Shown: positions 44,710 through 58,942 of the stretch, one piece after another | Layout of the letters: every line of letters begins with the position of its first letter | Numbering within the stretch: the first letter of the stretch is position 1 | Assembly: GCA_021323265.1 (NCBI GenBank) | Contig: JAJTCO010000025.1 | Coordinates: forward strand, 1 to 64,000 | Source: Pseudoduganella sp. | GTDB lineage: Bacteria > Pseudomonadota > Gammaproteobacteria > Burkholderiales > Burkholderiaceae_D | Length of the DNA: 64,000 nucleotides | Direction of reading: 5' to 3' | Notes under the pieces: model-generated | The model's database searches: none | What the model was told of the DNA's origin: nothing | What the model saw: the letters and a program-made list of their open reading frames with translations, nothing else | Program-made: the position numbers and the translations under genes

Positions 44710-45423
44710 TTATCGGTAGTTGGAAAGGATTTTGTTGATTGCGCCATCGCGCATCAGCTGCAGGATGGCGGCGTCGACCTCGGCCAGCGTCACTTTGCTG
44801 CGCAGCGACACGGCGCAGCGCGTGAGCTGGTGTTTGATCACCAGCGGCGGATGGGCGTCGACCTTCATGCCGAGCCGCACCTGATAATCGTAGAAGGCCT
44901 TGTCGATGATGATGTGCTGGATGCGTCCGAGCCTGAACTTGGTGAGGTTGGCCAGCGCCGACGGCGCATCGGAGCGCACGAAGCCGTCGCCCAATGCCTG
45001 CTCCATCTCCGGATAGGCGAAACCCAGCACGGTGCCCACCTGCTGGCCGCGCACGGCGCCGACGGTGAGCGGCCGCGGCACGGTGGCCGCGGACACCAGC
45101 AGTTCCGACTGCGGAAAGAAGGGCTGCGTCCATGCGTGCTGCCCCTCCAGCCATCCCGGCTGATAGGTGCACAGGACATCGGCGCGCCCGGATTCGAGGG
45201 CCTGGGCCAGCCGCTTGCGCGGCAGGACTTCGATGACCAGCTCGCGGCGCAGCCTGTTCGCCAGCGCCTTGCCCAGGTCCAGGTGGACGCCGCCGTGCAG
45301 CTTGCCGTCGCGGATATCGGCCATCGGCATGTCGACACTGGTGGCCACCAGCACCACCAGATGGTCGGCCTGCGCCGCCGCCATGGCCAGCCAGCTAATC
45401 AGCAATATACATAGCGCCCTCAT
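44710..45423 (-). CDS. Periplasmic solute-binding protein, paralogue 1
   Basis: A 237-residue protein with a signal peptide (residues 1-19) and an extracellular solute-binding fold of the amino-acid type. Typical parts are GGVHLDLGKALANRLRRELV and LTLAEVDAAILQLMRDGAIN. It shares high similarity over its length with the next gene, so they come from a tandem duplication. No permease or ATPase lies beside it. Confidence 0.85.
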   Translation of the reverse strand: MRALCILLISWLAMAAAQADHLVVLVATSVDMPMADIRDGKLHGGVHLDLGKALANRLRRELVIEVLPRKRLAQALESGRADVLCTYQPGWLEGQHAWTQPFFPQSELLVSAATVPRPLTVGAVRGQQVGTVLGFAYPEMEQALGDGFVRSDAPSALANLTKFRLGRIQHIIIDKAFYDYQVRLGMKVDAHPPLVIKHQLTRCAVSLRSKVTLAEVDAAILQLMRDGAINKILSNYR

Positions 45424-45451
45424 GCCGGAATAGTAACCGATCCACCAGAAA

Positions 45452-46165
45452 TCATTGGTAGGAGGACAGGATCTTGCCGACCGTCCCCTCGCTCACCAGC
45501 TGCGCGATCGCATGGTCGACCTCGGCCAGCGCCACACTGCTTTTGGGCGAAAGCGCGCAACGCGTCAGGTACTGCTTGATCACCAGGGGCGGGTGCGCAT
45601 TGAGCCGCTCTCCCTTGCGCAGCTGGTAATCGTAGAAGGTCTTGATGGTGGCCACATGCGGAATGCGGCCGGCGGCGAGCTTGCGCAGGTTGATGACATT
45701 GGAGGACACATCGCTGCGCCGAAAACGCGTTCCCAGTGCCGCCTCCAGCTCCGGGTAGCTGTAGCCCAGCACGGTGCCGATGGGCTGCCCGGCCAGGTCG
45801 CCCAGCGATTGCGGCTGGGGCGCCACGCGCGCCGTGACCAGCAGCTCCGTTTGCGGAAAGAACGGTTGCGTCCATTGGAAGCGTCCCGGCAGCCATTCCG
45901 GCAGGTACAGGCAAAGCAGGTCGCCCTGCCCCGTGCCAAGCGCCTGGGCAATGCGCTTGCGCGGCAGGACCTGCACCTCCAGCGTGCGGTTCAATTTGCG
46001 CGCCAGCGCCTGCGCCAGGTCGCGATGGATGCCGCCCCGCAGCTGCCCGTGCTGGATGTCCGCCAACGGCATTTCCGTGCTGGTGTCGACCAGCACGACC
46101 AGTTGCCCGGCGTGCGCCGGCGCCACGGCCGCGAGCGAGAGCAAGAGGGCGGAGATCGCTTTCAT
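45452..46165 (-). CDS. Periplasmic solute-binding protein, paralogue 2
   Basis: A 237-residue protein with a signal peptide (about 1-20) and the same fold as its neighbour: GGIHRDLAQALARKLNRTLE, LTRCALSPKSS and VDHAIAQLVSEGTVGKIL. The ATG at 46165 is family-typical; a start nine codons earlier is not. Upstream sequences of both paralogues share GGTTACTATT, so regulatory DNA was duplicated with the gene. Confidence 0.85.
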   Translation of the reverse strand: MKAISALLLSLAAVAPAHAGQLVVLVDTSTEMPLADIQHGQLRGGIHRDLAQALARKLNRTLEVQVLPRKRIAQALGTGQGDLLCLYLPEWLPGRFQWTQPFFPQTELLVTARVAPQPQSLGDLAGQPIGTVLGYSYPELEAALGTRFRRSDVSSNVINLRKLAAGRIPHVATIKTFYDYQLRKGERLNAHPPLVIKQYLTRCALSPKSSVALAEVDHAIAQLVSEGTVGKILSSYQ

Positions 46166-46232
46166 GCGGAAATAGTAACCCACCAGCGGCAATTTTGTTG
46201 CGGGGCCGCAGCCGGCGACCTGCCGCGCCAGC

Positions 46233-46691
46233 CTAGTGCGCCCAGACGCGCAGTTCGCCCTGCATCTGCAAGTTGCCGTTGATGTTCACGCTGCCCAGGT
46301 TGCCGCTGACGGCGCCATGCGGGTCGTTCTGCACGCTCATCGATTCGAAGCCGAAGTTCGCGTAGCGCAAATGCGCCGGCAGCGTGATGGCAAGATAGTC
46401 GCCGCCGCCGTCGGGGCGGGACTTGACGTCGATGCCGAGGGCGAACATGTCGATCGTGCCGCGCACATTGCGCAGCACGATGTAGCGCGGCGTACTGCCG
46501 TCATGAAAACCCAGCGACAGGCGGCTGTCGCTCAAGGCGCCGGCCAGGTTGGGATCGTTCACCACGATATGGGCGGCGAAGCCGATGCCGTCGCGCGCCT
46601 CGACGCGGGACAGTTCGGCGTCGTCCAGCATCCGGGGCGGCGCGGCGTGCAGCAAGGCGGGGCACAGCAACATGGCGGCAAGTCGTCTCAT
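46233..46691 (-). CDS. Exported DUF6160-like protein 1 (D-x-LSxV motif)
   Basis: A 152-residue exported protein. After the signal peptide (MRRLAAMLLCPALLHAAPPR) the mature start has LDDAELSRVEARDGIGF, the family motif. The rest is beta-rich and ends RVWAH. Its ATG overlaps the stop of the next gene upstream (ATGA). It is the last of four such genes, all minus strand. I liken the motif to DUF6160/FilA-type proteins from memory; function unknown. Confidence 0.78.
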   Translation of the reverse strand: MRRLAAMLLCPALLHAAPPRMLDDAELSRVEARDGIGFAAHIVVNDPNLAGALSDSRLSLGFHDGSTPRYIVLRNVRGTIDMFALGIDVKSRPDGGGDYLAITLPAHLRYANFGFESMSVQNDPHGAVSGNLGSVNINGNLQMQGELRVWAH

Positions 46692-47566
46692 TGGCGGAAG
46701 CGGATGTCGAGGTAGTTGATCTGGATGTTGCCGATGCGCGAGGCACCGAGATCGACGCTGCCGCCCGGTGCCGTGAAGCTGATCCTGCCGATCTCGATGC
46801 CGCCGCTGGCGGCCTGGCCGCTGCCGTACTGCGCGTCCGGCGCGCCGATGCCGATGTGCAGGCGCGGCCCGCTGGCGTCGGCCAGCGCATTGACCACGGC
46901 CGGCTGGCGCACGACGTCGGCGATGGCCCAGGGCAGGCCGGTGAAGTTGCCGGCATCGTCGGTGGCGCCGATGCGCACGTTCTCCAACGCCAGCTGCCCG
47001 CCGCTGTTGGCGCGCCCGTTCGGGCGCAGCGACCATGCGCCGATGTCCATGCGCAGCGCGGCGCCAAAGGCCAGGCCGTCCTGCGTGCGCGGCGTGGAAA
47101 ACTGCCAGCCGCCGCCATACAGGGCGAGATCGCTGACGACGACGGCGCCGCCTTCGCGGCCGATGCCATCGGCATTGACGCCGAAGTCGTACGCCAGCTG
47201 CCACTTCTGCTCCCCGCCCGCGTTCTGCGGCAGCGACAGCTGCGCAATGTCGGCCAGCCCCGGCGGGCCGCGCACGATGTCGAACCGATAGGGGTCCGCG
47301 AACGGCTGGGCACTGTCGCTGCGCGACGCGCTCGGGTTGGCGGCCCAGATACTGGCGCCGTCGGGACGCGTATAGGTCACGCGCAGGTCGCCGCTCATGG
47401 CGTAGCCACTGAGGTCGAAGCTGACACCGTCGCGTCCGCGCACGTCGGACAGGGCCGTGTCGCTCAGGGGGCGCAGCCCCTGCGCCCAGGCCGGCGTGCC
47501 CGCCAGCACGGCGCCGGCAAGCAGCGCCAGGCTGGCGCACATGGTCGGTGTGGGGCGCGCCATCAT
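46688..47566 (-). CDS. Exported DUF6160-like protein 2
   Basis: A 292-residue exported protein. After the signal peptide, LRPLSDTALSDVRGRDGVSF is the family motif, followed by a long beta-rich domain with repeated short strands (GGGWQFSTPRTQDGLAFGAA) and a C-terminal ISFTAPGGSVDLGASRIGNI. The ATG at 47566 overlaps the stop of the upstream gene (ATGATG), and its stop overlaps the start of the next, so the run is translationally coupled. Confidence 0.78.
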   Translation of the reverse strand: MMARPTPTMCASLALLAGAVLAGTPAWAQGLRPLSDTALSDVRGRDGVSFDLSGYAMSGDLRVTYTRPDGASIWAANPSASRSDSAQPFADPYRFDIVRGPPGLADIAQLSLPQNAGGEQKWQLAYDFGVNADGIGREGGAVVVSDLALYGGGWQFSTPRTQDGLAFGAALRMDIGAWSLRPNGRANSGGQLALENVRIGATDDAGNFTGLPWAIADVVRQPAVVNALADASGPRLHIGIGAPDAQYGSGQAASGGIEIGRISFTAPGGSVDLGASRIGNIQINYLDIRFRQ

Positions 47567-48345
47567 CGCATCGTCGGCAAGACGGGCGGCGCGGCGGGCG
47601 TGGGCGCGGCCGGCGGCGGCATGGCCGGCAGGGCCGTCAGCGACACCAGCTTGTCGCGCCAGTTCAGCCAGACGCCGGCCTGCGCCAGGTCGGGTACCTG
47701 CGCCGTGCCGGCCGGCGCCTGGAATTGCACGCCCGACTTCAGCACGGAAATCCAGAAATCCCGGCTGGGGCCGGAGGCGTCGCCCGCGCGCACGCCGGCC
47801 AGCGACGCGGCGCCATCCCAGCGCTTGCCGCCGCCAGGATCGCTGCGCGAATCGACGCTCGCCGGCTGGCCGTTGGCGTCCACTCCGCTGACCAGGAGCG
47901 AGCCGGAAAGGCTGTTGACCTTCAGGCCCACGTCGCCGCGGATCGTGTCGAAGCCCAGGCGCATGCCCACCACCTCGCGCGGCGCGGCAGCGTCTGCGCT
48001 GTCGCGGTACACGATTTCGAAATAGGGATTGGTGATCGACACCTTGCCGCCGTTCTGCCCGAACTGCAGCAGCGGCATGTCGATGTCGGCGCCCGTCCCT
48101 TCGCGCGAAGGAAAACGGTAGTCGCCCAGGCGGATATGGCGCAGGCTCGCATTCAGCTCGACGTCCGCGTCCAGCGCAATGCGCATGAAGTCGAAACCCT
48201 GGTGCGTGCTGTTGCTGATGGCGAGCAGGCCCTGCCCGCGTGCGCGCGACAGGTCGTCGTCGCTCATGGGACGCAGCTGCGCGGCAGCCGGAGCGCAGAA
48301 AAAGACGGCCGCGAGCGCGGCCGCAAAGAGACGGGATTCCATCAT
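47563..48345 (-). CDS. Exported DUF6160-like protein 3
   Basis: A 260-residue exported protein. After a signal peptide (about 1-22) the motif reads LRPMSDDDLSRARGQGLLAI. The middle is beta-rich, and the C-terminal part is Pro/Ala-rich (LPAMPPPAAPTPAAPP), perhaps a flexible linker or wall-spanning piece. ATG 48345 is used; the next codon is also ATG. No strong Shine-Dalgarno is seen; 44 bp separates it from protein 4. Confidence 0.76.
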   Translation of the reverse strand: MMESRLFAAALAAVFFCAPAAAQLRPMSDDDLSRARGQGLLAISNSTHQGFDFMRIALDADVELNASLRHIRLGDYRFPSREGTGADIDMPLLQFGQNGGKVSITNPYFEIVYRDSADAAAPREVVGMRLGFDTIRGDVGLKVNSLSGSLLVSGVDANGQPASVDSRSDPGGGKRWDGAASLAGVRAGDASGPSRDFWISVLKSGVQFQAPAGTAQVPDLAQAGVWLNWRDKLVSLTALPAMPPPAAPTPAAPPVLPTMR

Positions 48346-48389
48346 CGAGGACTCGAGGATGCGGCTGCATGAGGCAGCCGCAAAGCCGA

Positions 48390-48902
48390 TCAGTGTGCCC
48401 AGATCCACACTTGGGTGCCGCGCATGTCCAGCTGGTTGATCGCCATCGAACCATAGGATGCGTTGCTGCCGCCCATCTTGATCGCGTCGACCGAGATGTT
48501 CAGCAGCTTGCCGGCGGCCACCTGCACATCGGCCGGGATGGCGATCTGCACCACGTCGCCGCCGCTGGCGGCGTTGTAGAAGGTGCCCGGGTTGGTGACG
48601 CCGGCAGCGCCGGCCGCCTGCAGGAAGGAAGCGCGCGACAGGATGTCGATGGACGCGGCGATCAGGCCATTGACCTTGATGTTGTTGAAGCTCACCGAAC
48701 CGCCGCCCAGGCCGTTGGCGTCGAGTGCGTCCGTGTCGGTGTAGACGAAGGACTCGACCTTGATGTTCAGGTTGGCGCCGATCGACACGCCGTCCTGGCC
48801 GGTGACGGTGCTCAGTTCTGCGTCCTGGATCGGGGTCATGGCGGATGCCGACAGGGCCAGGGTGGACAGGGCAACTGCTACAGCGGTGGCAATACGTTTC
48901 AT
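48390..48902 (-). CDS. Exported DUF6160-like protein 4, first of the operon
   Basis: A 170-residue exported protein. Signal peptide MKRIATAVAVALSTLALSAS, then MTPIQDAELSTVTGQDGVSI, the clearest family motif. The C-terminus GSMAINQLDMRGTQVWIWAH is shared in pattern with the other family members. GGAG lies nine bases before the ATG. As the first gene it probably starts from the divergent region at 48903-49285. Confidence 0.8.
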   Translation of the reverse strand: MKRIATAVAVALSTLALSASAMTPIQDAELSTVTGQDGVSIGANLNIKVESFVYTDTDALDANGLGGGSVSFNNIKVNGLIAASIDILSRASFLQAAGAAGVTNPGTFYNAASGGDVVQIAIPADVQVAAGKLLNISVDAIKMGGSNASYGSMAINQLDMRGTQVWIWAH

Positions 48903-49285
48903 AGCGTTTATCTCCGTTCGAATATTGGTGTGGTTTTCTCCTGTGCGCCCCCTTGCCGGCGGCCAGGCCTGGTGGGCCCGGTGCGACGAAGCGCCGTCTT
49001 AATATTGTTTCAATATTAATTAAATTTATGATAGGTGCCCTCTTTCGCCAGGGTCCAGCATGTTGCGCTGACCGTGCGGGCCAAACGCTTGGCCTGGCGA
49101 GCCATCCAGAGGAAGAGCGCCGTTGCCGGCCTGTTGCCGACGTGTTGCGTGCTTTAGCATAAGTTTTCGCGCACGAGCTAGAGGTGTGCATCTAATCTTT
49201 TTGCATCCCGTGCGCAAAAAAACGTGCGTAAATAAATAACAAAAGAGCAAGGACGAACGTTCGTCCGCATAAACTTGGAGACGTC
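48903..49285. other. Divergent control region of the surface-assembly locus
   Basis: This 383-bp gap separates four minus-strand exported-protein genes from the plus-strand peptidase operon. It has an AT-rich core with inverted repeats (AATATT at 49001-49006 and 49012-49017), a 16-bp perfect palindrome (49251-49266) and the leader ORF start at its right end. Promoters for both operons are expected here but none matches consensus well. Confidence 0.6.
49251..49266. promoter_or_regulatory. 16-bp perfect palindrome upstream of the peptidase operon
   Basis: GGACGAACGTTCGTCC is fully self-complementary, 20 bp before the leader ORF. It could be an operator, possibly for the AraC regulator of this locus, or fold as an RNA hairpin. 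Confidence 0.5.
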
Positions 49286-49360
49286 ATGGGAGCAGATTTC
49301 GACGCGCGTTCGACGCGCCAGGGCAGCGCTCACCCCTACGATCGGGAGCTGCCATGCTGA
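49286..49360 (+). CDS. Short leader ORF (24 codons) overlapping the peptidase start
   Basis: This ORF begins MGADFDARSTRQGSAHPYDR and ends in ELPC. TTGGAG lies five bases before its ATG. Its TGA (49358-49360) overlaps the first codons of the peptidase gene (ATG at 49354), so ribosomes finishing it could reinitiate there. It is predicted from position only; conservation is not checked. Confidence 0.4.
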   Translation: MGADFDARSTRQGSAHPYDRELPC

Positions 49361-50121
49361 TGCTGTTGATGGGGGTGCTGGCGGCCCTGATCGGCGGTTC
49401 CGCCGCCCTCTCCCGCCACGAAATCCAGGACCGCCCCAAAGGCCAGTACGACATGCCGCAAACCATGCTGGGGGGCGGCGCCTATGCGCAGTCGGTCAGC
49501 ATGGAGCCGTTCTCCGAACTGAAATACCGCCACATCGTGCGCCAGGCGTATGACTACAGCTGCGGCTCGGCGGCGCTGGTCACCATCCTCAAGTTCCACA
49601 TCGGGATCGACGTCACCGAACAGCAGGCCATGGAAGGCATGCTGGAAAAGGGCGAGAAGGAAAAGATCATCGAGCGGCGCGGCTTCTCGCTGCTGGACAT
49701 GAAGCGCTACGCCGCCTCGCTCAACGTACCCGCCGCCGGCTACCGCGCCGAAGTCAAGGACCTGCTGACGCTGAACGAACCGGCCATCGTGCCAATCGAC
49801 TATGCGGGCAGCAAGCACTTCGTGGTGTTGCGCGGCATCCGCGACGGCGTGGTCTTCATCGCCGATCCTTCCGCCGGCAACCTCGCCTTCTCGGTCGAGG
49901 AGTTCGCGACGCTATGGGACAAGAACACCCTCTTCATCCTGTCCGCTCCCGCCGGACACAAGGCGCCGGCACAACTGGCGCTCAACGACCTGGAACTGGG
50001 CGTGGTCGACATGGATCGCGTGACCCATCGCGGCCAGCTGGATCCCTTCAACAACACAACGCAGCTGCTGGAGCGCGCCGTGAACTCGGGCGCAGCCCGC
50101 ACCTGGATGCATCGACAATAA
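49354..50121 (+). CDS. C39-like cysteine peptidase
   Basis: A 255-residue protein with an N-terminal hydrophobic segment (residues 1-18), so exported or membrane-bound. The peptidase domain has the Cys motif RQAYDYSCGSAALVTILKFH (about residue 66) and the His motif KHFVVLRGI (about 153), with an Asp in IADPSAGN. C39 domains process leader peptides in ABC exporters; here the domain stands alone. GGGAG precedes the ATG. The neighbouring exported motif proteins are candidate substrates. Confidence 0.82.
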   Translation: MLMLLMGVLAALIGGSAALSRHEIQDRPKGQYDMPQTMLGGGAYAQSVSMEPFSELKYRHIVRQAYDYSCGSAALVTILKFHIGIDVTEQQAMEGMLEKGEKEKIIERRGFSLLDMKRYAASLNVPAAGYRAEVKDLLTLNEPAIVPIDYAGSKHFVVLRGIRDGVVFIADPSAGNLAFSVEEFATLWDKNTLFILSAPAGHKAPAQLALNDLELGVVDMDRVTHRGQLDPFNNTTQLLERAVNSGAARTWMHRQ

Positions 50122-50132
50122 GGATACCGAGC

Positions 50133-51140
50133 ATGAAATACGCAACCCTGCCTGTTTTGCTTGCCACCGCGCTGCTGGTGCATTCGACCGCCGGCGCCCA
50201 GGAAGGCACGGCAGCCAATAGTTCCGCGGCCGCGCGCGAAGCGCTGGCGAAGAAGGAAGGCGAAGGCGACCAGAGCGCCCTGCTGAAGGAAACGCTGACC
50301 GCGGTCGACAAGCAGTACTCCCTGATCCGCAAGGGCCGCTCGCAGTTCACCTATGACCTGAACTACAGTTACATCGGGCAGGAGAAGATCGTCACCGATA
50401 TTGCCGCCGACGGCCTGACCCTGTTCGAAATCGAGAACGTGTCGGCCCACATCGTCACCAACACCCTGTCCGCCGATTACGGCGTGTGGGACAACCTGAC
50501 CGCCAACGTGACGCTGCCCGTGATCGCCAAGTTCGCCGAAGCGCGCGGCGGCAACCATACCTCCTACTCGCTGGGCGACATCGCGCTGGGCGCGCGCTAC
50601 CAGCCATGGGAAGCGCGGCGCGACACGGCCAACGTCACCCTGACCAGCAACCTGCGCCTGCCCAGCGGACGCAGCCCGTTCAAGATCATCGCCGGCAGCG
50701 GCGAGGCAACCGGCAGCGGCGTCGCTTCGCTGTCGGCCGGCGTCAACGTCAACCGCATCGTCGACCCGGTGGCGCTGTTCGGCTCCATGTCGCTGACGGC
50801 GAGCGCGCCGGCCACGGGCCTGCACCAGGCCAACGGCACGCGCGTGCTGACGCGCGTGGCGCCGGGCACGCAGTTCGGCTTCGGCATGGGCTTCGCCTAC
50901 GCGCTTTCCTACGGCATTTCCACCACCATGTCGTTCCAGGGCGCCATCGCGCAAGGCGCCAAGCTGCGCTTTGCGGACGGCCTGAACGTGCGCACCAATA
51001 CCCAGACCTCGGCGCTGCTGAACTTTGGCCTGGGTTACCGCGTCACGCCCAAGAAGACCGTCAACCTGTCGGTCGGCATCGGCCTGACCAGCGACTCGCC
51101 CAACTTCTCGGTCGGGCTGAACCTGCCGCTGGCGTTCTGA
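50133..51140 (+). CDS. Outer-membrane beta-barrel protein ('transporter' family)
   Basis: A 335-residue exported protein with a signal peptide (residues 1-20). The body shows alternating hydrophobic/polar strands with conserved Tyr/Gly turns, as in YDLNYSYIGQ and LSVGIGLTSDSPNFSVGLNL at the end, so it is probably an outer-membrane barrel of the Phenol_MetA-like/transporter group. AAGGA precedes the ATG at 50133. It is the second gene of the plus-strand operon. Confidence 0.75.
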   Translation: MKYATLPVLLATALLVHSTAGAQEGTAANSSAAAREALAKKEGEGDQSALLKETLTAVDKQYSLIRKGRSQFTYDLNYSYIGQEKIVTDIAADGLTLFEIENVSAHIVTNTLSADYGVWDNLTANVTLPVIAKFAEARGGNHTSYSLGDIALGARYQPWEARRDTANVTLTSNLRLPSGRSPFKIIAGSGEATGSGVASLSAGVNVNRIVDPVALFGSMSLTASAPATGLHQANGTRVLTRVAPGTQFGFGMGFAYALSYGISTTMSFQGAIAQGAKLRFADGLNVRTNTQTSALLNFGLGYRVTPKKTVNLSVGIGLTSDSPNFSVGLNLPLAF

Positions 51141-51150
51141 CGGGACGGCC

Positions 51151-52752
51151 ATGCGAGCCCCGCTCCGCCTGGCGGCATGCGCCGCCGCGCTCACCTGCAT
51201 CCTGCCCGCGCGCGCCGCGCTGGTGGAAAACCTTACCACCAGCGTGGTGGCCATGGCGCTTGGCAATGCCGTGACGGCCGACCCGCCCGGCATCGACTCG
51301 GTGCATTTCAACCCCGCCGGGCTGGCGCGCCTGCAGGGCGACAGCGCACAGCACGCCGCGTTCGGCGCATCGATCCGCGCCCGCGCCAGTTTCCGGCGCC
51401 CGGACGGCTTCGACATCGGCGGCTGGAAGGACGACCCGGTCAGCGGCACCAGCACCGGCCCGATGCGCCAGACCATGTACGTGCCCGGCTATGGCATGCC
51501 GGGCTGGCGCCTGCCCGGCGTGATCGTGCCGAGCCTGGGCTTCGCCTGGAACAAGCCCGGCTCGCCCTGGACCTTCGCCACCAACTCCTACATGGCGCAG
51601 GCGATCAGCCTGGACCGAACGACCGACCCGAACGACCCGGGCCGCTTCGACGGCCGCCAGGTCCAGCTGCAACGCCTGGTGTACGCCTCGCCAGCGGTCG
51701 GCTACAAGTATTCGGAAACGCTGCGTTTCGGCGCCGCCGTGCCCATTGCCCACTCGGCCTTCGTGGTCGACACGCACATGCGCTTTCCCAACGAGCTGCT
51801 GGGCATTTTCGGCAAGCTGCAGTCGGGCTGGTGCCCGGAGGAAGGCGGCAACATCATCGACACCTTCGGCTTCGGCCTGTGCGGCGGCGGCAAGGAAGGC
51901 ATGGTCAACCCGTTCAAGAAGGCGGCCGCCATGCGCCTGCAGATGACGGCGCCGGTCGACCCCACGCTGAACCTTGGCGTACTGTGGGAACCGCGCCCCT
52001 GGTTCGCGCTGGGCGCGGCCTACCAGGGCGGCTCGAAGACGCGCTACACGGGCCACTACCAGTTCGACACGGAACCGATGCTGCGCAACTTCGTCAAGGG
52101 GCTCAACTCCAGCCTGTTCGGTCCCGTGGCCGGCGCGGTGCTGGGCATGCCGACCTCGATCCCGGAAACGCAGCACGGCAATATGTCGGCCAGCATCCCC
52201 TTCCCCGCCCACCTGCAGGTCGGGGTCAAGTTCAAGCCGGTGCGCTACGTGCAGCTGAACGTGGACGCCAGCTATGCGCGCTGGAGCGACTGGAACCAGC
52301 TCACCTTCGAGTTCGACCAGAGCGTCAAGCTGCTGGAAGTGGCGCGCCTGTACGGCATTCCCGACTCCACCAGGCTGAAGATCCCGCGCGGCTACAAGAG
52401 CGTGCTGAACATGGCCTACGGCCTGCAGCTCTTTCCCTTCGAGGGCGCGGCCCTGCGCCTTGGCTACGAGCCGCGCAAGACGTCGGTCCCGGCCAGCAAG
52501 ATCGACCTGATCGCGCCACTGCCGGACACGCGCCTGTACAGCGTGGGCCTGCATTGGCGCATCAACAAGCAGTACGAGCTGAACCTGACCGGCAGCTACA
52601 TGCAGGGCCGGTTCGATGCGCCGGCCGAATCGTCGGACAACATGAACAGCAGCAAATTCCTCAACATCATCTACAACCCTTATGCCGGCCACGACGTGTC
52701 CGGCGACATCAAGGTCCGCTATGTCGGATTCAGCCTCATTGAACGTTTCTAG
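51151..52752 (+). CDS. FadL-like outer-membrane transport protein
   Basis: A 533-residue beta-barrel of the FadL/OmpP1/TodX family, which moves hydrophobic substrates through the outer membrane. The signal peptide ends near ARA. The N-terminal hatch part has NAVTADPPGIDSVHFNPAGL, the family NPAGLA-type motif, and strands run to FSLIERF at the C-terminus. It lies 10 bp after the barrel gene and may let a hydrophobic or lipidated product leave or enter. Confidence 0.85.
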   Translation: MRAPLRLAACAAALTCILPARAALVENLTTSVVAMALGNAVTADPPGIDSVHFNPAGLARLQGDSAQHAAFGASIRARASFRRPDGFDIGGWKDDPVSGTSTGPMRQTMYVPGYGMPGWRLPGVIVPSLGFAWNKPGSPWTFATNSYMAQAISLDRTTDPNDPGRFDGRQVQLQRLVYASPAVGYKYSETLRFGAAVPIAHSAFVVDTHMRFPNELLGIFGKLQSGWCPEEGGNIIDTFGFGLCGGGKEGMVNPFKKAAAMRLQMTAPVDPTLNLGVLWEPRPWFALGAAYQGGSKTRYTGHYQFDTEPMLRNFVKGLNSSLFGPVAGAVLGMPTSIPETQHGNMSASIPFPAHLQVGVKFKPVRYVQLNVDASYARWSDWNQLTFEFDQSVKLLEVARLYGIPDSTRLKIPRGYKSVLNMAYGLQLFPFEGAALRLGYEPRKTSVPASKIDLIAPLPDTRLYSVGLHWRINKQYELNLTGSYMQGRFDAPAESSDNMNSSKFLNIIYNPYAGHDVSGDIKVRYVGFSLIERF

Positions 52753-52764
52753 GAGCGCACAACC

Positions 52765-53295
52765 ATGAAAAAAATTGCGATCATGATCGCCGCCCTGGCC
52801 ATCGGCGGCACCGCCCAGGCGGCAGCTACGCCTGCCAAGCAGGAACTGGTGAACCGCGTGCTGCAGCTGTGGCACCCTGAATCGATCGGCGAATCGATGC
52901 TGCAGGCGCCGGTGGGCGACGCCGTGCAGCAGGCACGCGCGGTGCTGCAGGGACGCGTCTCGCCCGAACGGCGCGACGCGGCGCTGAAGGAGATCTTGGC
53001 CGACGCGCGCAAGTTCATGGAAGAGAACAAGCCGCTGGCGCACGCGAGCGCGCAGAAGCTGGTCGGCAGCACCGTGGCGCCGATGCTGGCCGAACGCTTC
53101 AGCGAAGAGGAGCTGCGCCAGGTCATCGCCATCCTGGAGTCGCCGGTCAAGAAGAAGTTCGAAGCGATGCTGCCGGAACTGCAGAAGAAGCTGGGCGAGA
53201 GCGTGGCGGCCGACACGCGCGCCGTGATCGACCCCAGGCTGCAGGAACTGCAGCAGCGCATCGGCAGCCGCCTGCGCAGCGCAGTGACGCCCTGA
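52765..53295 (+). CDS. DUF2059-type exported protein
   Basis: A 176-residue exported protein with a signal peptide (residues 1-18, ending AQAA) and a helical domain of the DUF2059 kind (FSEEELRQVIAILESPVKKK). It likely sits in the periplasm. TAGGAG precedes the ATG. It is the fourth main gene of the operon and could act as a periplasmic chaperone for the exported proteins. Confidence 0.75.
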   Translation: MKKIAIMIAALAIGGTAQAAATPAKQELVNRVLQLWHPESIGESMLQAPVGDAVQQARAVLQGRVSPERRDAALKEILADARKFMEENKPLAHASAQKLVGSTVAPMLAERFSEEELRQVIAILESPVKKKFEAMLPELQKKLGESVAADTRAVIDPRLQELQQRIGSRLRSAVTP

Positions 53296-53309
53296 GCGGA
53301 GACCGGGCC

Positions 53310-54278
53310 ATGAGCTACTCTTCGGCTCTTCACCTGGTGCGCGGTGTGAAATCGCGCTTACTGCATTCGGGCGTCCAGGCCGAGCAGCTGTTCGCGCAGG
53401 CCGGCCTGGACGAAGGCGACGGCATCGCCTGCGATGCGCTGACGCTGTCCGACAAGCTCAGTCACCTGTGGGACTTGCTGGTCGAGCATTCCGGCGATCC
53501 CCTGATCGGGCTGAAAGTCTCGACGCCGCACCGGCTTGGCTGGCTGGGGGTCATGGGGCACATCATGCTGGTCTCGCCGACCTTGCAAAGCACGATCGAG
53601 CGCTGCCACGGCCGCACGCGGGTGGGCATCTTGCTGCCCGGCCTGCGGCGCGCCGTGCCGCGCCAGCGCTACGACTTCGTATGGTGCGTGCTGCTGCGTA
53701 CCCTGCGCTGCGCATCCGGCCGCGACGACGCGGTACCGGTGGTAGTGGAGTATAGTTTCCCGGAACCGGCCAACGCCGCCTACTACGAACAGACATTCGG
53801 CTGTCCGGTGCATTTCGACCGGCCACACAACGTGATGGAATTTTCCGATTCCGACCTGGTGGCGGCGCTGCCCAACGGCGGCATGCCGCAGGCAGGCGAC
53901 GCCGCCGGGGCGTCGGTGCTGGCGCGCCTGGCCGAAGCGCACCCGCCGGCCTTCACCGCGCGGGTGCAGGAAATCCTCGCGTCGCTGCTGGCCAAGGGTC
54001 CGCCGCACCGCGAAACCGTGGCAGGCCTGCTGGCAATGAGCGAGCGCACACTGCAGCGGCGCCTGGCGGAGGAAGGCACCAGCTTTTCCGCCCTGGTGGA
54101 CGACACGCGCCGCGCGCTGGCGCGCCAGTCGCTGGAAGCGGGCGAGCTGTCGCTGAAGATGCTCAGCTTCCAGCTGGGCTTTTCCGAACCGAGCGCGTTC
54201 TACCGGGCCTGCAAGCGCTGGTTCGGCATGACGCCTTCCGACCTGGCCAATCATGGAGAACGACATGGCATGGTATAG
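53310..54278 (+). CDS. AraC family transcriptional regulator
   Basis: A 322-residue regulator. The N-terminal effector-binding fold (about residues 20-190) includes LGWLGVMGHIMLVSPTLQST. The HTH pair (about 225-310) has ETVAGLLAMSERTLQRRLAE and LSFQLGFSEPSAFYRACKRW. It resembles OruR-type regulators. Around residues 98-115 it seems about 20 residues shorter than relatives, possibly a small deletion. It is likely to control this operon and overlaps the next gene by 14 bp. Confidence 0.85.
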   Translation: MSYSSALHLVRGVKSRLLHSGVQAEQLFAQAGLDEGDGIACDALTLSDKLSHLWDLLVEHSGDPLIGLKVSTPHRLGWLGVMGHIMLVSPTLQSTIERCHGRTRVGILLPGLRRAVPRQRYDFVWCVLLRTLRCASGRDDAVPVVVEYSFPEPANAAYYEQTFGCPVHFDRPHNVMEFSDSDLVAALPNGGMPQAGDAAGASVLARLAEAHPPAFTARVQEILASLLAKGPPHRETVAGLLAMSERTLQRRLAEEGTSFSALVDDTRRALARQSLEAGELSLKMLSFQLGFSEPSAFYRACKRWFGMTPSDLANHGERHGMV

Positions 54279-54954
54279 ACCCGAGCACCCCGCGCAGCTG
54301 TTCGGCCAGCTGCTGGTGAAGCACAAGCTGGTGACCGAGGAACAGCTGCACAGCGCCATCGCGCAGCAGCGCGACACCGGCCAGCGCCTGGGCGAGATCT
54401 TCGCCGAATGGAACCTGGTGACGCAGCAGCACGTGCAGGACATGCTGCGCAAGCAGCGCCGCGTGCGCATGGCGGCGGCCCTGATCAGCGCCATCTTCGC
54501 GCCGCTGGAAGCCTATGCCGCCGAAGCGCTGGCCGCCGCCCCTGCCGCCGTCAGCACGCCGGCCGTCCTGCCGCGCGGCGCCCTGTCGGAGGCCGAACTC
54601 GGTGCCGTGTCGGCGCAGGGCCTGGACGACGACCTGGTGCGCCAGGTGCGCGAGCAGCTCAAGCGCAACGGCGTGGAAGTGGTCGGCGACCTGGCCAAGC
54701 TGGTCAACCCGGTGCTGGGCGTGCTCGATGCCGACGTCAGCGTGCACAACGTCGTGTACGCGCCGCAGCGCGCCGCCACCACGATCAATCCGGACGGCTC
54801 GATCAGCCTGAACCTGCCCACCACCATCGGCGAGATCAACTTCAGCAATATCCGCGTGCACGGCGCCGCTGCCGGCGGGCCGTCCTTCGGCAGCATCGCC
54901 ATCCGCGGCATCGACCTGACCGGCACGGTCATCACGCTGTCGCTGAAGCGGTGA
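54265..54954 (+). CDS. MshEN-like domain fused to a DUF6160-like exported region
   Basis: A 229-residue protein. The N-terminus has an MshEN-like (T2SS E N-terminal) fold (about residues 10-60, LLVKHKLVTEEQLHSAIAQQ and RLGEIFAEWNLVTQQHVQDM), a possible c-di-GMP site, though several Gly and Arg of the motif are changed. A hydrophobic helix (about 63-85) follows, then the motif LSEAELGAVSAQG and a beta-rich part ending IAIRGIDLTGTVITLSLKR. It joins a cytosolic domain to an exported family domain. Start at ATG 54265 has GGAGA upstream. Confidence 0.8.
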   Translation: MAWYRPEHPAQLFGQLLVKHKLVTEEQLHSAIAQQRDTGQRLGEIFAEWNLVTQQHVQDMLRKQRRVRMAAALISAIFAPLEAYAAEALAAAPAAVSTPAVLPRGALSEAELGAVSAQGLDDDLVRQVREQLKRNGVEVVGDLAKLVNPVLGVLDADVSVHNVVYAPQRAATTINPDGSISLNLPTTIGEINFSNIRVHGAAAGGPSFGSIAIRGIDLTGTVITLSLKR

Positions 54955-55568
54955 AACACGTCCCGCACCCGCTGTACGCCGCCCTGGCCGCGGCCCTGCT
55001 CCTGGCGCCAGCGGTGCGCGCCGGCGCGCCTGCTCCGGACTGGGCGGCGCTGGCTGGCGGCGCGGTCCAGGTGAGCGCGGTGGCCAGCCCCGGCCTGCCG
55101 GGCAAGGCCTTCACGGCCTGGACCCTGGTGCCCGCCTCCGTGGATCGCCTGTGCGCCCTGGTGCAGGACTACCCGTCCTATGCCGCCTACATGCCGAACA
55201 CGAAAAGCGCGCAGCCGCTCGCCGGCGGCGAAGGCTACGTGCTGGTGGACATGACGCTGGACCTGCCGCTCGGGCAGGAAAAGAAATACCGCCTGCGCCT
55301 GGAACCGCGCGCCGACGCCACGCACTGCCGCCTGGCCTGGCGCCTGGTGCCCAGCGGCCTGGCGCCGGCGGACACCATTGCCGACACCAGCGGCTACTGG
55401 CTCTTCACGCCCCAGCCCGGGGCCCATGGCGGCCACACCCTGGTCGAGTACCACGTCTACGCCGATCCCGGCCCCGTGCCCTTCGGCTTGGGCTGGATCG
55501 TGGACATGATGAGCCGGCGCAGCCTGCCGCGCACGCTGGAGGCGCTGCGCGCGCAAGCGGCCAAATGA
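54951..55568 (+). CDS. SRPBCC/START-like exported protein
   Basis: A 205-residue protein with a signal peptide (residues 1-22). The SRPBCC/START-like fold shows in VPASVDRLCALVQDYPSYAA and LPLGQEKKYRLRLEPRADAT. Such folds hold lipids or other hydrophobic molecules. The GTG start overlaps the preceding TGA (GTGA), so it is coupled. It ends the operon; two bases separate it from the convergent DUF4019 gene. Confidence 0.8.
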   Translation: MKHVPHPLYAALAAALLLAPAVRAGAPAPDWAALAGGAVQVSAVASPGLPGKAFTAWTLVPASVDRLCALVQDYPSYAAYMPNTKSAQPLAGGEGYVLVDMTLDLPLGQEKKYRLRLEPRADATHCRLAWRLVPSGLAPADTIADTSGYWLFTPQPGAHGGHTLVEYHVYADPGPVPFGLGWIVDMMSRRSLPRTLEALRAQAAK

Positions 55569-55569
55569 C

Positions 55570-56427
55570 TCACTCCGCGCAGCGGTACACGCCGCGCATC
55601 TTGGCGCGCTGCTCGGGCGTCAGTTGGGCGTCGGTGGCCTTGTAGATGAAGTTCTCTTCCTCGCGCACCAGCAGGAAGCTGCCGTCGGCCTGCTCGCTCC
55701 AGACCAGGTAGCCGCAATAGGTGTCGGCGTTGGCGAAGCGGCCCGTGAAGTCGACCGCGGCGTAGGTGCCCGGCGTGCCGCCATGCGCGCTGCGGTACAC
55801 CGTCACCTTTTTCACCTCGCGCTGCAGCGGCGCACCGGCTTTGGCTGCCGTCTCCGCCGCCGCGCTGCGCCACTGCGCAAAGCTCGATTGCTGCTGCGCG
55901 GCCGCGGCCAGGCGCGCCCACGCCTCGCGGTAGCGCTGGGCATCCTTGTCGGCGAAGTACGCCCGGCTCAACTCTTCCACGCGGCTCTTCTGCGAAGCGC
56001 TCGGCTTCCACGGCGCGGCCGGCGTCGCGGGCGCCGCCAGCGCCTGCTGCAGGGCCGCGTTCACGCGCCGGAATTCCTCGGTCAACGCATCGCAGGCGTC
56101 GCGCCGCCCCTGGCACAGCGTGTGCATGCGGATCGACGGCTGGCCATCCTGGTTGACCACCGTGCGCCGCACCACGGCCGGATGCGCGTCGTGCCCGGGC
56201 GGCGTGAACGACCACAACGTGCTGTTGGCCTTGTCGTCCGCGATGGTCCAGCCGTCTTGTACGGTGACGGTCACGTCGGGCCGCGCCTTCAACGCCTCGA
56301 GCGCCGCCGCGACGGACGGGTAGCCCGTGCCATTCACGCTGGCCGCGGCGACAATGGTCGATAACACAAGATTAAGCATCATAGCAATATAGACCACGGC
56401 GCGCGCGCGGGTCAATTGTGATAGCAT
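55570..56427 (-). CDS. DUF4019-like exported protein
   Basis: A 285-residue exported protein. The signal peptide is best if translation starts at 56427 (basic TRAR then a hydrophobic stretch to AAAS); ATG 56382 is an alternative. The C-terminal half (about 165-275) resembles DUF4019, with VKKVTVYRSAHGGTPGTYAA. Function unknown. Its promoter region overlaps the FadR-type operator of the divergent GntR gene, so it may be that regulator's target. Confidence 0.7.
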   Translation of the reverse strand: MLSQLTRARAVVYIAMMLNLVLSTIVAAASVNGTGYPSVAAALEALKARPDVTVTVQDGWTIADDKANSTLWSFTPPGHDAHPAVVRRTVVNQDGQPSIRMHTLCQGRRDACDALTEEFRRVNAALQQALAAPATPAAPWKPSASQKSRVEELSRAYFADKDAQRYREAWARLAAAAQQQSSFAQWRSAAAETAAKAGAPLQREVKKVTVYRSAHGGTPGTYAAVDFTGRFANADTYCGYLVWSEQADGSFLLVREEENFIYKATDAQLTPEQRAKMRGVYRCAE

Positions 56428-56431
56428 CCCG

Positions 56432-56442
56432 TGGTCTTACCA
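56432..56442. promoter_or_regulatory. GntR/FadR-type operator
   Basis: TGGTCTTACCA matches the TGGT-N3-ACCA palindrome of FadR-subfamily regulators. It lies between the divergent GntR and DUF4019-like genes and inside an outer inverted repeat (GTCAATTG 56411-56418, CAATTGAC 56449-56456). Confidence 0.65.
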
Positions 56443-56459
56443 TTAGGCCAATTGACATC

Positions 56460-57209
56460 ATGCCATCCGCCCAACGCCTGTCCGACGTCGTCGCCGCTGA
56501 ACTTGAAACTCGCATCCTGGAAGGTTCGCTCAAGCCGGGCGACCGCTTGCCGGCCGAGCGCGAACTGGCGGTGGAACTGGGCGTGTCGCGCCCTTCGCTG
56601 CGCGGGGCGCTGCAGGCACTGGTGGCCAAGGGCCTGCTCATTACGCGCCATGGCGGCGGCACCTTCGTCACCGATTCCATGCAGGCGGCATTCACCGACC
56701 CCTGGCAACAGATGCTGAACGACCATCCGGACATCCATGGCGACATGCTGGAGTTCCGCCACATGCTGGAAGGCCAGGCCGCGCAGCTGGCCGCCGAGCG
56801 CGGCACGCAGGAAGACTTCGACCGCATCCGCAGCTGCTATGAGGCGCTGGAACGGGCCTTCGAGGAACAGGACCTGGAACGGTGCATCGAGACCGACGTC
56901 GAATTCCACCAGGCCATCGCGGAGGCGTCGCACAATGTGCTGATCGGGCACCTGAGCTCCAGCCTGCACAAGGTGATGGAAGGCCACGTGCAGGGCAACC
57001 TGGAATACCTGAATGCGCGCCCAGAGCTATGGGCCCAGCTGCGCGAACAGCATCGCGCGATCTGGGACGCGGTGCGCGAGCGCTGCATGGACGTGGCCGG
57101 GCGCGCGGCGCACCACCACCTCGATTTCGTGCAGCAGACCATGCGCGAAACCAGGAAGAACGAGGGGCGCCGCAGCGCGGCCACGCGGCGGCTCAGCGCC
57201 GCCGCGTAA
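56460..57209 (+). CDS. GntR family regulator (FadR subfamily)
   Basis: A 249-residue regulator. The winged HTH is at about residues 8-75 (LKPGDRLPAERELAVELGVS) and the FCD effector domain at about 90-230, with a helical bundle including HRAIWDAVRERCMDVAGRAA. FCD proteins usually bind small carboxylates. The ATG at 56460 is used; the frame is open 14 codons earlier. It likely represses itself through the TGGTCTTACCA site. Confidence 0.9.
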   Translation: MPSAQRLSDVVAAELETRILEGSLKPGDRLPAERELAVELGVSRPSLRGALQALVAKGLLITRHGGGTFVTDSMQAAFTDPWQQMLNDHPDIHGDMLEFRHMLEGQAAQLAAERGTQEDFDRIRSCYEALERAFEEQDLERCIETDVEFHQAIAEASHNVLIGHLSSSLHKVMEGHVQGNLEYLNARPELWAQLREQHRAIWDAVRERCMDVAGRAAHHHLDFVQQTMRETRKNEGRRSAATRRLSAAA

Positions 57210-57221
57210 GGCCGGCAGGCC

Positions 57222-58847
57222 TTAGTTGGCGCGCGCCTTGCCGAAGGCGTCGCCCGCCTTCCACGCCGGCATCGCCGGCGCATCGGCCACCATACGGCCC
57301 AGGTTCAGGGTGAACTGCGCCATCTGCGTCATGCCCGCCATCGACCAGTTCGCGTCGTACTCGTCGCTGACCTGGTGATAGCTCTTGCGGTAGGCCGCGC
57401 GCATCTGCTCCGCCTTGGCCTTGTCGCCCAGGTAGTCGCTACCCGAGGTGATCGAGAACGCCGGCACGCCCGCCTTGGCGAAGCTGAAGTGGTCGGAGCG
57501 GAAGTAGCCGCCCGCCAGGTCCGGCCGCTCCTGCGCGATCACCATCTTCATGTTGCGCGCCGTGGCGGCGGCCATCTTGCCCAGGTCGGTGCGCTCGCTG
57601 CCGGCGGTGCCGATATCGCGCGTGGTGCCGATCCAGTTCAGCGAATCGAGGTTCAGGTTGGCGGCGGTCTTTTCCAGCGGCCACAGTGGCGCTTCCGCAT
57701 AGGCCGCGCTGCCGAGCAGGCCCTGCTCTTCCGCCGCCACCCACAGGAACATCTGGCTGCGCTTGGCCGGCGCCTTCACGGCTTCCTGCGCCATGGCCAG
57801 CAGGGCCGCGGTGCCGGACGCGTTGTCGACCGCGCCGTTATAGATGGTGTCGCCGGAGGTGCCCTGCTTGCCCAGGTGGTCCCAGTGCGCGGTGTAGATC
57901 ACCACTTCGTCCTTCAGCTTGGGATCGGTGCCCGGCACCACGCCGGCCACGTTGTACTGGTCGACCTTGCGCACTTCGGCCTTCATGTCGCCCACCAGCC
58001 TGGCCTTCAGCGCCACCGGCTGGAAGTCCTTGCGTTCGGCGGCGGCGCGCTGCTGGTCCAGGTCCAGGCCGGCGGCCTTGAACAGGGCCACGGCGGCATC
58101 GTTGGTCAGCCAGCCCTGCAGCTCGGTGCCCGGCGTGCCTTGCGCCAGCTGGAAGCGTTCCACGCCGTCCCAGCTGTTCTGCACCACGCTGTAGCCGTAG
58201 GAGGCGGAGGCGTCGGTGTGGATCAGCAGCGCGCCGATGGCGCCCTTGCGCTTGGCTTCCTCGAACTTGTAGGTCCAGCGGCCGTAGTAGGTCAGGGCCT
58301 TGCCGCCGAAGCGGTTGGGCGCCTCGGCCGTCGGCAGCGGGTCGTTGACCATCATGACGATGACCTTGCCCTTCACGTCATGGCCCTTGTAGTCGTCCCA
58401 GCCTTCTTCCGACGCCGTGATGCCGTAGCCGACGAACACCATGTCGGCATTGAAGCTGTGCGCCGCCTGCGCATCGCCCGGCGCGTACACCCAGTCCTTG
58501 CCGAAGCTGACCGGCAGCGCGGCGCCGTTGACCAGCAGGCGCAGGCTGGAAGCCGCGGCGTCGGTCTTCACGCCGGCAATCTTCACCAGCTGGCGATAGC
58601 TGTTGCCGTTGCCCGGCTTCAGGCCGGCGGCCATGGCCTGGTTCTCCAGGTAGGAAACGGTCAGGTCGCCGCCGCGCTGGCCGGTGCCGCGCCCTTCGAG
58701 CAGGTCGCTGGAGAGGAAGGCCAGGTGCGCGCGCAGCGGTGCTTCCTGCACCACCGGCTGCGCCGCCTTGTTGGCGGCAACGGCAGGCAGCGCCAGCGCC
58801 ACGCTGGCGGCCAGGGCGGAGACGATGAAGGTCGGGAGTTTTTTCAT
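57222..58847 (-). CDS. M28 family metallopeptidase, exported
   Basis: A 541-residue zinc peptidase with a signal peptide (residues 1-24) and a PA domain insert before the catalytic domain. Zinc ligands appear in VVIYTAHWDHLGKQG, GAVDNASGTAALL, WVAAEEQGLLGSAAYAE and FRSDHFSFAKAGVPAF. It is likely an aminopeptidase in the periplasm or outside. The ATG at 58847 is the family start; upstream open frame is not similar. Confidence 0.92.
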   Translation of the reverse strand: MKKLPTFIVSALAASVALALPAVAANKAAQPVVQEAPLRAHLAFLSSDLLEGRGTGQRGGDLTVSYLENQAMAAGLKPGNGNSYRQLVKIAGVKTDAAASSLRLLVNGAALPVSFGKDWVYAPGDAQAAHSFNADMVFVGYGITASEEGWDDYKGHDVKGKVIVMMVNDPLPTAEAPNRFGGKALTYYGRWTYKFEEAKRKGAIGALLIHTDASASYGYSVVQNSWDGVERFQLAQGTPGTELQGWLTNDAAVALFKAAGLDLDQQRAAAERKDFQPVALKARLVGDMKAEVRKVDQYNVAGVVPGTDPKLKDEVVIYTAHWDHLGKQGTSGDTIYNGAVDNASGTAALLAMAQEAVKAPAKRSQMFLWVAAEEQGLLGSAAYAEAPLWPLEKTAANLNLDSLNWIGTTRDIGTAGSERTDLGKMAAATARNMKMVIAQERPDLAGGYFRSDHFSFAKAGVPAFSITSGSDYLGDKAKAEQMRAAYRKSYHQVSDEYDANWSMAGMTQMAQFTLNLGRMVADAPAMPAWKAGDAFGKARAN

Positions 58848-58942
58848 GGCTTCTCTAGTGTTTATCCAAGCGGGGCATTCTAGCGGATTTGCGCCGTGCG
58901 CCAAGCTGCAGCGCAGCATGCGGGATGGTATGCTACGCGGCC

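Follow-up and report, generated by a model that had tools for sequence, protein, structure and literature searches.

A divergent Pseudoduganella gene cluster related to fil and fap loci, and the double-glycine-like leader of its exported proteins

What is built by two operons at positions 46233–55568 of a 64,000-nucleotide stretch of Pseudoduganella sp. (GenBank assembly GCA_021323265.1, contig JAJTCO010000025.1, positions 1 to 64,000; hereafter the window)? The contig (C92) belongs to an incomplete genome of 149 contigs with a completeness of 83, and the nearest named protein matches of the window are from Massilia, Pseudoduganella and Duganella. The minus-strand run m4, m3, m2, m1 extends from 48902 down to 46233, and the plus-strand run contains, in order, a C39 peptidase, FilC, FilD, a DUF2059-like protein, an AraC regulator, an MshEN fusion and an SRPBCC protein. 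The cluster very probably builds a surface filament, the exported subunits of which are trimmed at a double-glycine-like leader by a periplasmic protease. It most likely represents pili of the Fil type assembled by Fap-type machinery, and it offers a specific predicted cutting site as well as a candidate receptor for cyclic di-GMP (c-di-GMP). Its main elements are as follows.

48390..48902, minus strand: m4, FilA-type (DUF6160) pilin, precursor of 170 amino acids (aa), predicted mature start D37
48795..48830, minus strand: m4 leader core IQDAELSTVTGQ, residues 25–36, predicted cut between GQ and DG, register from PDB entry 9xfv and the identical gene
47563..48345, minus strand: m3, predicted exported, leader-bearing (leader 48232–48267)
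46688..47566, minus strand: m2, predicted exported, leader-bearing (leader 47432–47467)
46233..46691, minus strand: m1, predicted exported, leader-bearing (leader 46593–46628), C-terminal part akin to m4
49354..50121, plus strand: FilB/FapD-type C39 peptidase, stand-alone, 255 aa, hydrophobic N-terminus
50133..51140, plus strand: FilC, FapF-family outer-membrane barrel with an LP(S/T)G stretch
51151..52752, plus strand: FilD, FadL/OmpP1-family barrel

The m4 protein is homologous to the subunit of a solved environmental filament ('Pilus-like-alpha', PDB 9xfv), with E values of 5.8e-24 as a single sequence and 1.6e-40 as a profile. The homology spans the predicted mature start to the end of m4; structurally aligned, the two proteins are 46% identical. 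The 9xfv subunit is matched with 100% identity by a gene in a cluster of the same kind. This gene encodes a precursor of 210 residues, of which the deposited chain covers 38–210. The chain lacks the signal peptide as well as an additional segment with LSTVSGQ at its end, and the first deposited residue directly follows the leader. This break between GQ and DG is consistent with the spacing of the double-glycine leaders on which C39 peptidases act, the consensus of which is LSxxELxxIxGG, or L-x3-E-L-x2-(V/I)-x-G-G. An earlier reading made from the sequence only had proposed that the exported proteins are processed and placed on or through the outer membrane; the start of 9xfv exactly after the leader supports the view that such a protein loses an N-terminal piece and ends in a filament. 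In the AlphaFold prediction of m4, a leader helix (27–34, low confidence) precedes a beta domain (39–167; the best of five models has a mean predicted local distance difference test score of 74.5). No paper on 9xfv was found in the literature search, and the entry as viewed names no genes, peptidase or pathway.

By eye, each of m1–m4 begins like a signal peptide, and the leader motif comes next. Across the four families the motif has the form [LIM]xDx(E/A)LSxVxGx(D/G)G or a GQGL form. The DUF6160 model (cut-off 27 bits) scores 66.4 bits on m4, 34.5 bits on m2 over residues 16–59, 18.6 bits on m3 and 13.2 bits on m1. In distinct sequences selected by a regular expression (regex), numbering backward from the cut gives Leu, Ile or Met at −12, Asp (or Glu) at −10, Leu at −7, Val at −4 (often Thr in m3) and Gly at −2 (Ala in the fusion). 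Position −1 is mostly Gln or Arg and is Gly or Ala in some; Gly occurs in 16 of the 65 distinct m2 and 17 of the 65 distinct m1 sequences, and a true GG leader is found in part of the m1 and m2 sequences. A contig scan confirmed 455 relatives, the closest 80 of which were kept as named loci. The regex, written from earlier loci, was applied to 60 of them, the other 20 being excluded as their C39 was already in the set. It matched 100 of 103 m4, 57 of 57 m2, 54 of 56 m1, 45 of 57 m3 and 32 of 45 fusion open reading frames (ORFs), which had been assigned to families with models that include the leader, compared with 7 of the 11863 other ORFs in the 80 named loci. The motif occurs far more often than chance would allow. 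The 12 missed m3 proteins carry GQA instead of GQG, and two of the three missed m4 ORFs are partial by reading. After removal of the leader, hhalign pairs m4 with m1 at a probability of 90% and with the fusion tail at 95%. For m2 and m3 it gives 16% or less against any other; relatives of the mature part of m2 and m3 were looked for and none was found. One short signal ahead of unrelated mature proteins looks like a processing signal.

The predicted cutting enzyme is the lone C39 peptidase. It matches Peptidase_C39 with 72 bits (cut-off 22) and, among NCBIfam models, FilB with 219.7 bits (cut-off 475) and FapD with 126.9 bits (cut-off 330). Residues Q64, C70, H155 and D171 are invariant among 22 FilB sequences and fit the active site of C39 peptidases. 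Exporters of double-glycine bacteriocins (C39-ABC proteins such as PCAT1) are similar in the C39 domain by sequence and in the spacing of the leader. In contrast to them, the peptidase of the window is not fused to an ABC transporter, its putative substrates have Sec-type starts, and the predicted cut is periplasmic. An alternative is that the leader is an assembly or export signal bound, not cut, by FilB (or FilC), with FilB acting like a chaperone and another protease trimming the subunits. The 9xfv structure is compatible with it, as the leader is gone but its remover is not shown by the structure, and PMC5557850 describes a subgroup of type I secretion systems with a C39-like domain that has no catalytic activity. 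The invariant residues argue against this alternative, as does the position of the cut in the C39 register. PMC5557850 also reports that the related FapD requires its Cys for FapC secretion. We consider a non-cutting FilB unlikely, and the peptidase, which the sequence-only reading had named as the processor, keeps that probable role.

The first barrel matches FilC with 254.6 bits (cut-off 630) and FapF with 78.8 bits, below the FapF cut-off. Its profile matches the FapF crystal chains with an E value of 1.1e-29 over profile positions 142–331, and the alignment retains an LPTG-like stretch resembling the PTG motif that PMC6173800 reports for FapF and COG4313. The second barrel matches FilD with 391.8 bits (cut-off 970) and Toluene_X with 134.9 bits. 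Because of the FapF-chain match and the LPTG-like stretch, FilC is predicted to be the better candidate for subunit exit than FilD.

The suspected kinship with the Acinetobacter fil genes is supported by the NCBIfam matches. Homologs of FilA-type, FilB, FilC and FilD proteins are common to both, the order B-C-D is kept, and a FilA-type gene lies nearby. The m4 protein scores 45.5 bits with FilA (cut-off 220). Since all four scores are below the curated cut-offs, m4, FilB, FilC and FilD are relatives rather than certified Fil members. Further differences from fil are that no FilE or FilF match was found among the 10 proteins scanned, that the window adds DUF2059-like, AraC and MshEN-fusion genes, and that its FilA-type operon is divergent. 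The system had been regarded as undescribed, which holds only in part: the NCBIfam models for Fil proteins already carry the name 'putative pilus system', and the structure of a related filament has been deposited. The Fap system (FapA–F) is also similar. As in Fap, the C39 peptidase adjoins a FapF-family barrel, although both score below the FapD and FapF cut-offs, and a leader variant occurs in FapE-type proteins. This relationship of FilB and FilC to FapD and FapF would favor a functional amyloid of the Fap kind. However, the same 10 proteins gave no match to FapB, FapC, FapE or an amyloid repeat, a FadL barrel is added, and m4 is a pilin-type subunit with a predicted folded beta domain that matches a pilus-like filament subunit; such an amyloid is very unlikely. 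An outer-membrane exporter of lipids or other hydrophobic molecules, with the motif proteins as periplasmic or surface partners, would account for the FadL-family FilD (79 of the 80 named loci) and for the SRPBCC gene, a possible carrier, next in the window, but it is the least probable of these alternatives because SRPBCC is detected in only 12 of the 80 loci, FilC groups with FapF and m4 groups with a filament subunit. The hydrophobic cargo proposed earlier is not supported, given this SRPBCC count and the FapF kinship of FilC.

The named loci are mostly from Burkholderiales genera, Pseudoduganella violaceinigra and a Duganella sp. among them, with a few metagenome-assembled genomes titled only Proteobacteria. 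Some loci are cut by contig ends, and the counts are lower bounds: C39 and FilC are each present in 80 of the 80, FilD in 79, the DUF2059-like protein in 78, m4 in 75, AraC in 74, m3 and m2 in 73 each, m1 in 71, the MshEN fusion in 57 and SRPBCC in 12. C39, FilC and FilD occur together in 30 of 30 loci (22 of the window's family and 8 of other orders of the class), several of which are from the same genomes as the named loci. In the family sample of 245 genomes, the FilB model matches 81 (E 1e-15 or better); scores exceed 200 bits in 23 of these and are below 150 in the other 58. The phylum sample of 299 genomes has 25 with a match, nine above 200 bits and 16 below 150. None reaches the curated cut-off. 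DUF6160 was found in 24 family genomes, namely 23 of 23 with FilB, 0 of 58 termed FapD-type and one further genome (G318, 86% complete). It was found in 11 phylum genomes, namely 9 of 9 with FilB, 0 of 16 termed FapD-type, and two others (G113 and G186, the latter below cut-off). In both samples 'FapD-type' denotes nothing more than a FilB-model score below 150 bits. The FilB–DUF6160 association has Fisher probabilities of 2e-31 (family) and 1e-15 (phylum), in which the genomes are related and the counts are not independent events. In G354, G447, G409, G174 and G138 the DUF6160 genes found are tens of kilobases away from filB or on a different contig, and G062, G058, G146, G190 and G261 have extra DUF6160 copies elsewhere. 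Both observations suggest that the link is more than the travel of a whole operon. In the window genome DUF6160 is present only at this cluster. The co-occurrence of the gene set outside the species, on which the earlier reading depended, is observed in named loci of many genera, and in the two samples FilB-type C39 and DUF6160 occur together. Second clusters of three to four leader-bearing genes lie far from filB in L045, L051, L052 and L055, from other orders of the class.

The fusion gene joins an MshEN domain to a leader-bearing, pilin-like protein.

54253..54954, plus strand: MshEN fusion, with MshEN domain, membrane/signal-like segment, leader and pilin-like tail; the start may be 54265
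54298..54456, plus strand: MshEN motifs I and II, first Arg absent in motif I and present in motif II
54469..54519, plus strand: hydrophobic segment, ending in a signal-peptidase-like AYA (by eye)
54583..54618, plus strand: fusion leader core LSEAELGAVSAQ, followed by GL

The c-di-GMP receptors of the GSPII type (MshE, PilF) are fused to an ATPase, whereas the MshEN domain of the window is fused to a membrane segment, a leader and a pilin-like tail. PMC12002112 gives the MshEN consensus as two motifs, each of 24 residues, that have Arg at position 1, Gly at position 3 and Gln at position 24. The window fusion has G3 and Q24 in both motifs, and in contrast to those receptors it has lost the Arg of motif I. 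Arg is present in both motifs in 8 of 47 aligned rows, seven of which are from other orders. The fusion occurs in 9 of 9 phylum genomes with the FilB-type peptidase and 0 of 290 without, and the full fusion in 18 of 23 family genomes with and 2 of 222 without; the alignment used was built from genomes having FilB as far as known and may favor them, and its other-order rows were first obtained by searching 22 selected genomes, 21 of which have FilB, with just the window protein. Short fusion paralogs without the MshEN domain, consisting of a signal-like start, leader and pilin-like tail, are present in L099–L104. By reading of the sequence, a MalT/LuxR-type protein of more than 900 aa adjoins the cluster in L006 (6303–9116), L010 (6309–9242) and L032 (10633–13407), where there is no linked MshEN fusion.

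A variant of the leader, LxxxELxxxRG[GRK][FY], is found in FapE-type proteins beside FapD. PMC6173800 and PMC5557850 state that the FapD substrate is undetermined. FapE has already been suspected as this substrate (Rouse et al.); the shared leader and the link to DUF6160 pilins are new here. The 14-position Fil-leader matrix reached at most 9.1 on Fap ORFs, below the 14 used for Fil, and was then cut to 11 positions with other weights. In this form, at 14.5 or more, it selected 16 of the 1228 ORFs lying near the peptidase and none of the 2988 others in 30 FapD-type loci; partly by reading, FapE-type proteins make up 13 of these 16, and the rest are two small exported ORFs and one amyloid repeat. 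The FapE of L066, which carries LKDQELAQLRGKY, scores 346 bits with the FapE model (cut-off 250); this model matches four other candidates below cut-off and does not match that of L070. The pattern [LM]xxx[RHKT]G[GRK][FY], derived from these 30 loci, occurs in an ORF immediately downstream of the peptidase for 24 of them and in 5 of 3266 far ORFs. In a further 20 FapD-type loci, which all come from the window's own family sample and are not distant relatives, the unaltered pattern was found in 14, compared with 2 of 1037 other ORFs. The window genome also contains, in L035 (G000 contig C9, 83301–103300), a second, FapD-type C39 peptidase adjoining a FapF-like barrel and an ORF with LEQARGGY. 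One of 26 FapF ORFs (L043, 11842–13296) has an internal motif copy, PDDLVTMRGRY. Small exported ORFs with LSDSQMDSVAAGQ or LTESQMDTVSAGQ lie near a weak C39 match at L083 (9501–10666), a possible third post-Sec leader class.

The remaining elements of the locus are listed below.

48903..49353: intergenic region of 451 bp separating m4 from the peptidase gene, common to the divergent operons
52765..53295, plus strand: DUF2059-like protein, signal-like start, 19.4 bits (cut-off 23.6)
53310..54278, plus strand: AraC-family regulator (Arabinose_bd and HTH_18)
54951..55568, plus strand: SRPBCC/Polyketide_cyc2 protein, signal-like start, GTG start by reading, 29.7 bits (cut-off 27.4), peripheral

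The gene inventory of the sequence-only reading was largely recovered. The four coupled minus-strand genes with a common motif are seen, and the lone C39 domain, the two outer-membrane barrels (one of the FadL family), AraC, the MshEN-type fusion and SRPBCC are all confirmed. For the DUF2059-type protein, the family match is weak. The operons, described as facing, are instead divergent and lie back to back. A proposed leader ORF at 49275–49553 is not taken as a gene because it has a TTG start, lies partly within the peptidase gene in a different reading frame, and has full-length matches only in close relatives. The neighbors at 44710–46192 and 55570–58919 encode two tandem SBP_bac_3-type proteins (one just below cut-off), a DUF4019 protein and an M28 peptidase; for some of these proteins, homologs adjoin the cluster in close relatives.

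The gene set, its leader, the co-occurrence, the kinship of m4 with a filament subunit and the deposited mature start of the solved relative are observations, and from them we infer the following pathway. The precursors of m4, m3, m2 and m1 would be exported by Sec, and signal peptidase would remove the signal peptide, leaving the short leader [LIM]xDxELSxVxG[QRG] in place. Periplasmic FilB would then cut behind the leader, between GQ and DG in m4, to yield the mature subunit, as FapD may do with FapE in Fap systems. The subunits would cross the outer membrane via FilC, and m4 would polymerize, with m3, m2 and m1 probably being minor subunits. FilD and the DUF2059-like protein are a constant part to which the proposal assigns no role. 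The fusion, a predicted membrane protein with its own leader and a pilin-like tail, probably couples c-di-GMP to assembly; as a guess from its architecture, it may do so by releasing its own tail on cutting or by holding FilB. Several points weigh against this scheme, in addition to the relatedness of the genomes counted. Cutting of any substrate by FilB is a prediction, the m4 site is GQ rather than GG, and the deposited start of 9xfv could stem from disorder or the depositors' choice. Binding of c-di-GMP by the window copy is doubtful because motif I is without the first Arg. The full fusion is missing from 5 of the 23 family genomes with FilB, no fusion lies within locus L176, and G435 (contig C1, 23013–23819) has a full fusion and no FilB-type C39 or DUF6160 match. 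In Fap systems, 6 of the 30 and 6 of the 20 FapD-type loci have no downstream motif, and the FapE leader reaches only consistency with gaps in published mass spectrometry. With these points included, we regard the combination of Sec export, leader cutting by FilB, exit through FilC, an m4 pilus and the fusion as a probable c-di-GMP link as a likely account of the cluster, held with good confidence.

The 9xfv filament can now be tied to a gene cluster, a protease and a channel, which makes its assembly pathway testable, and a precise candidate cut site is available in both FapE-type proteins and Fil pilins. The fusion is a candidate for coupling c-di-GMP directly to the assembly of pili, as a receptor that resembles a subunit itself. 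A broader idea, which we advance tentatively and with less than even expectation, is that FilB (folded pili) and FapD (amyloid) share one post-Sec leader code, in which the leader keeps subunits unassembled until it is cut and the cut in the pilus branch is gated from the cytoplasmic side by a transmembrane c-di-GMP receptor with a leader and a pilin domain of its own. If this is true, a second messenger would control the proteolytic licensing of fiber growth.

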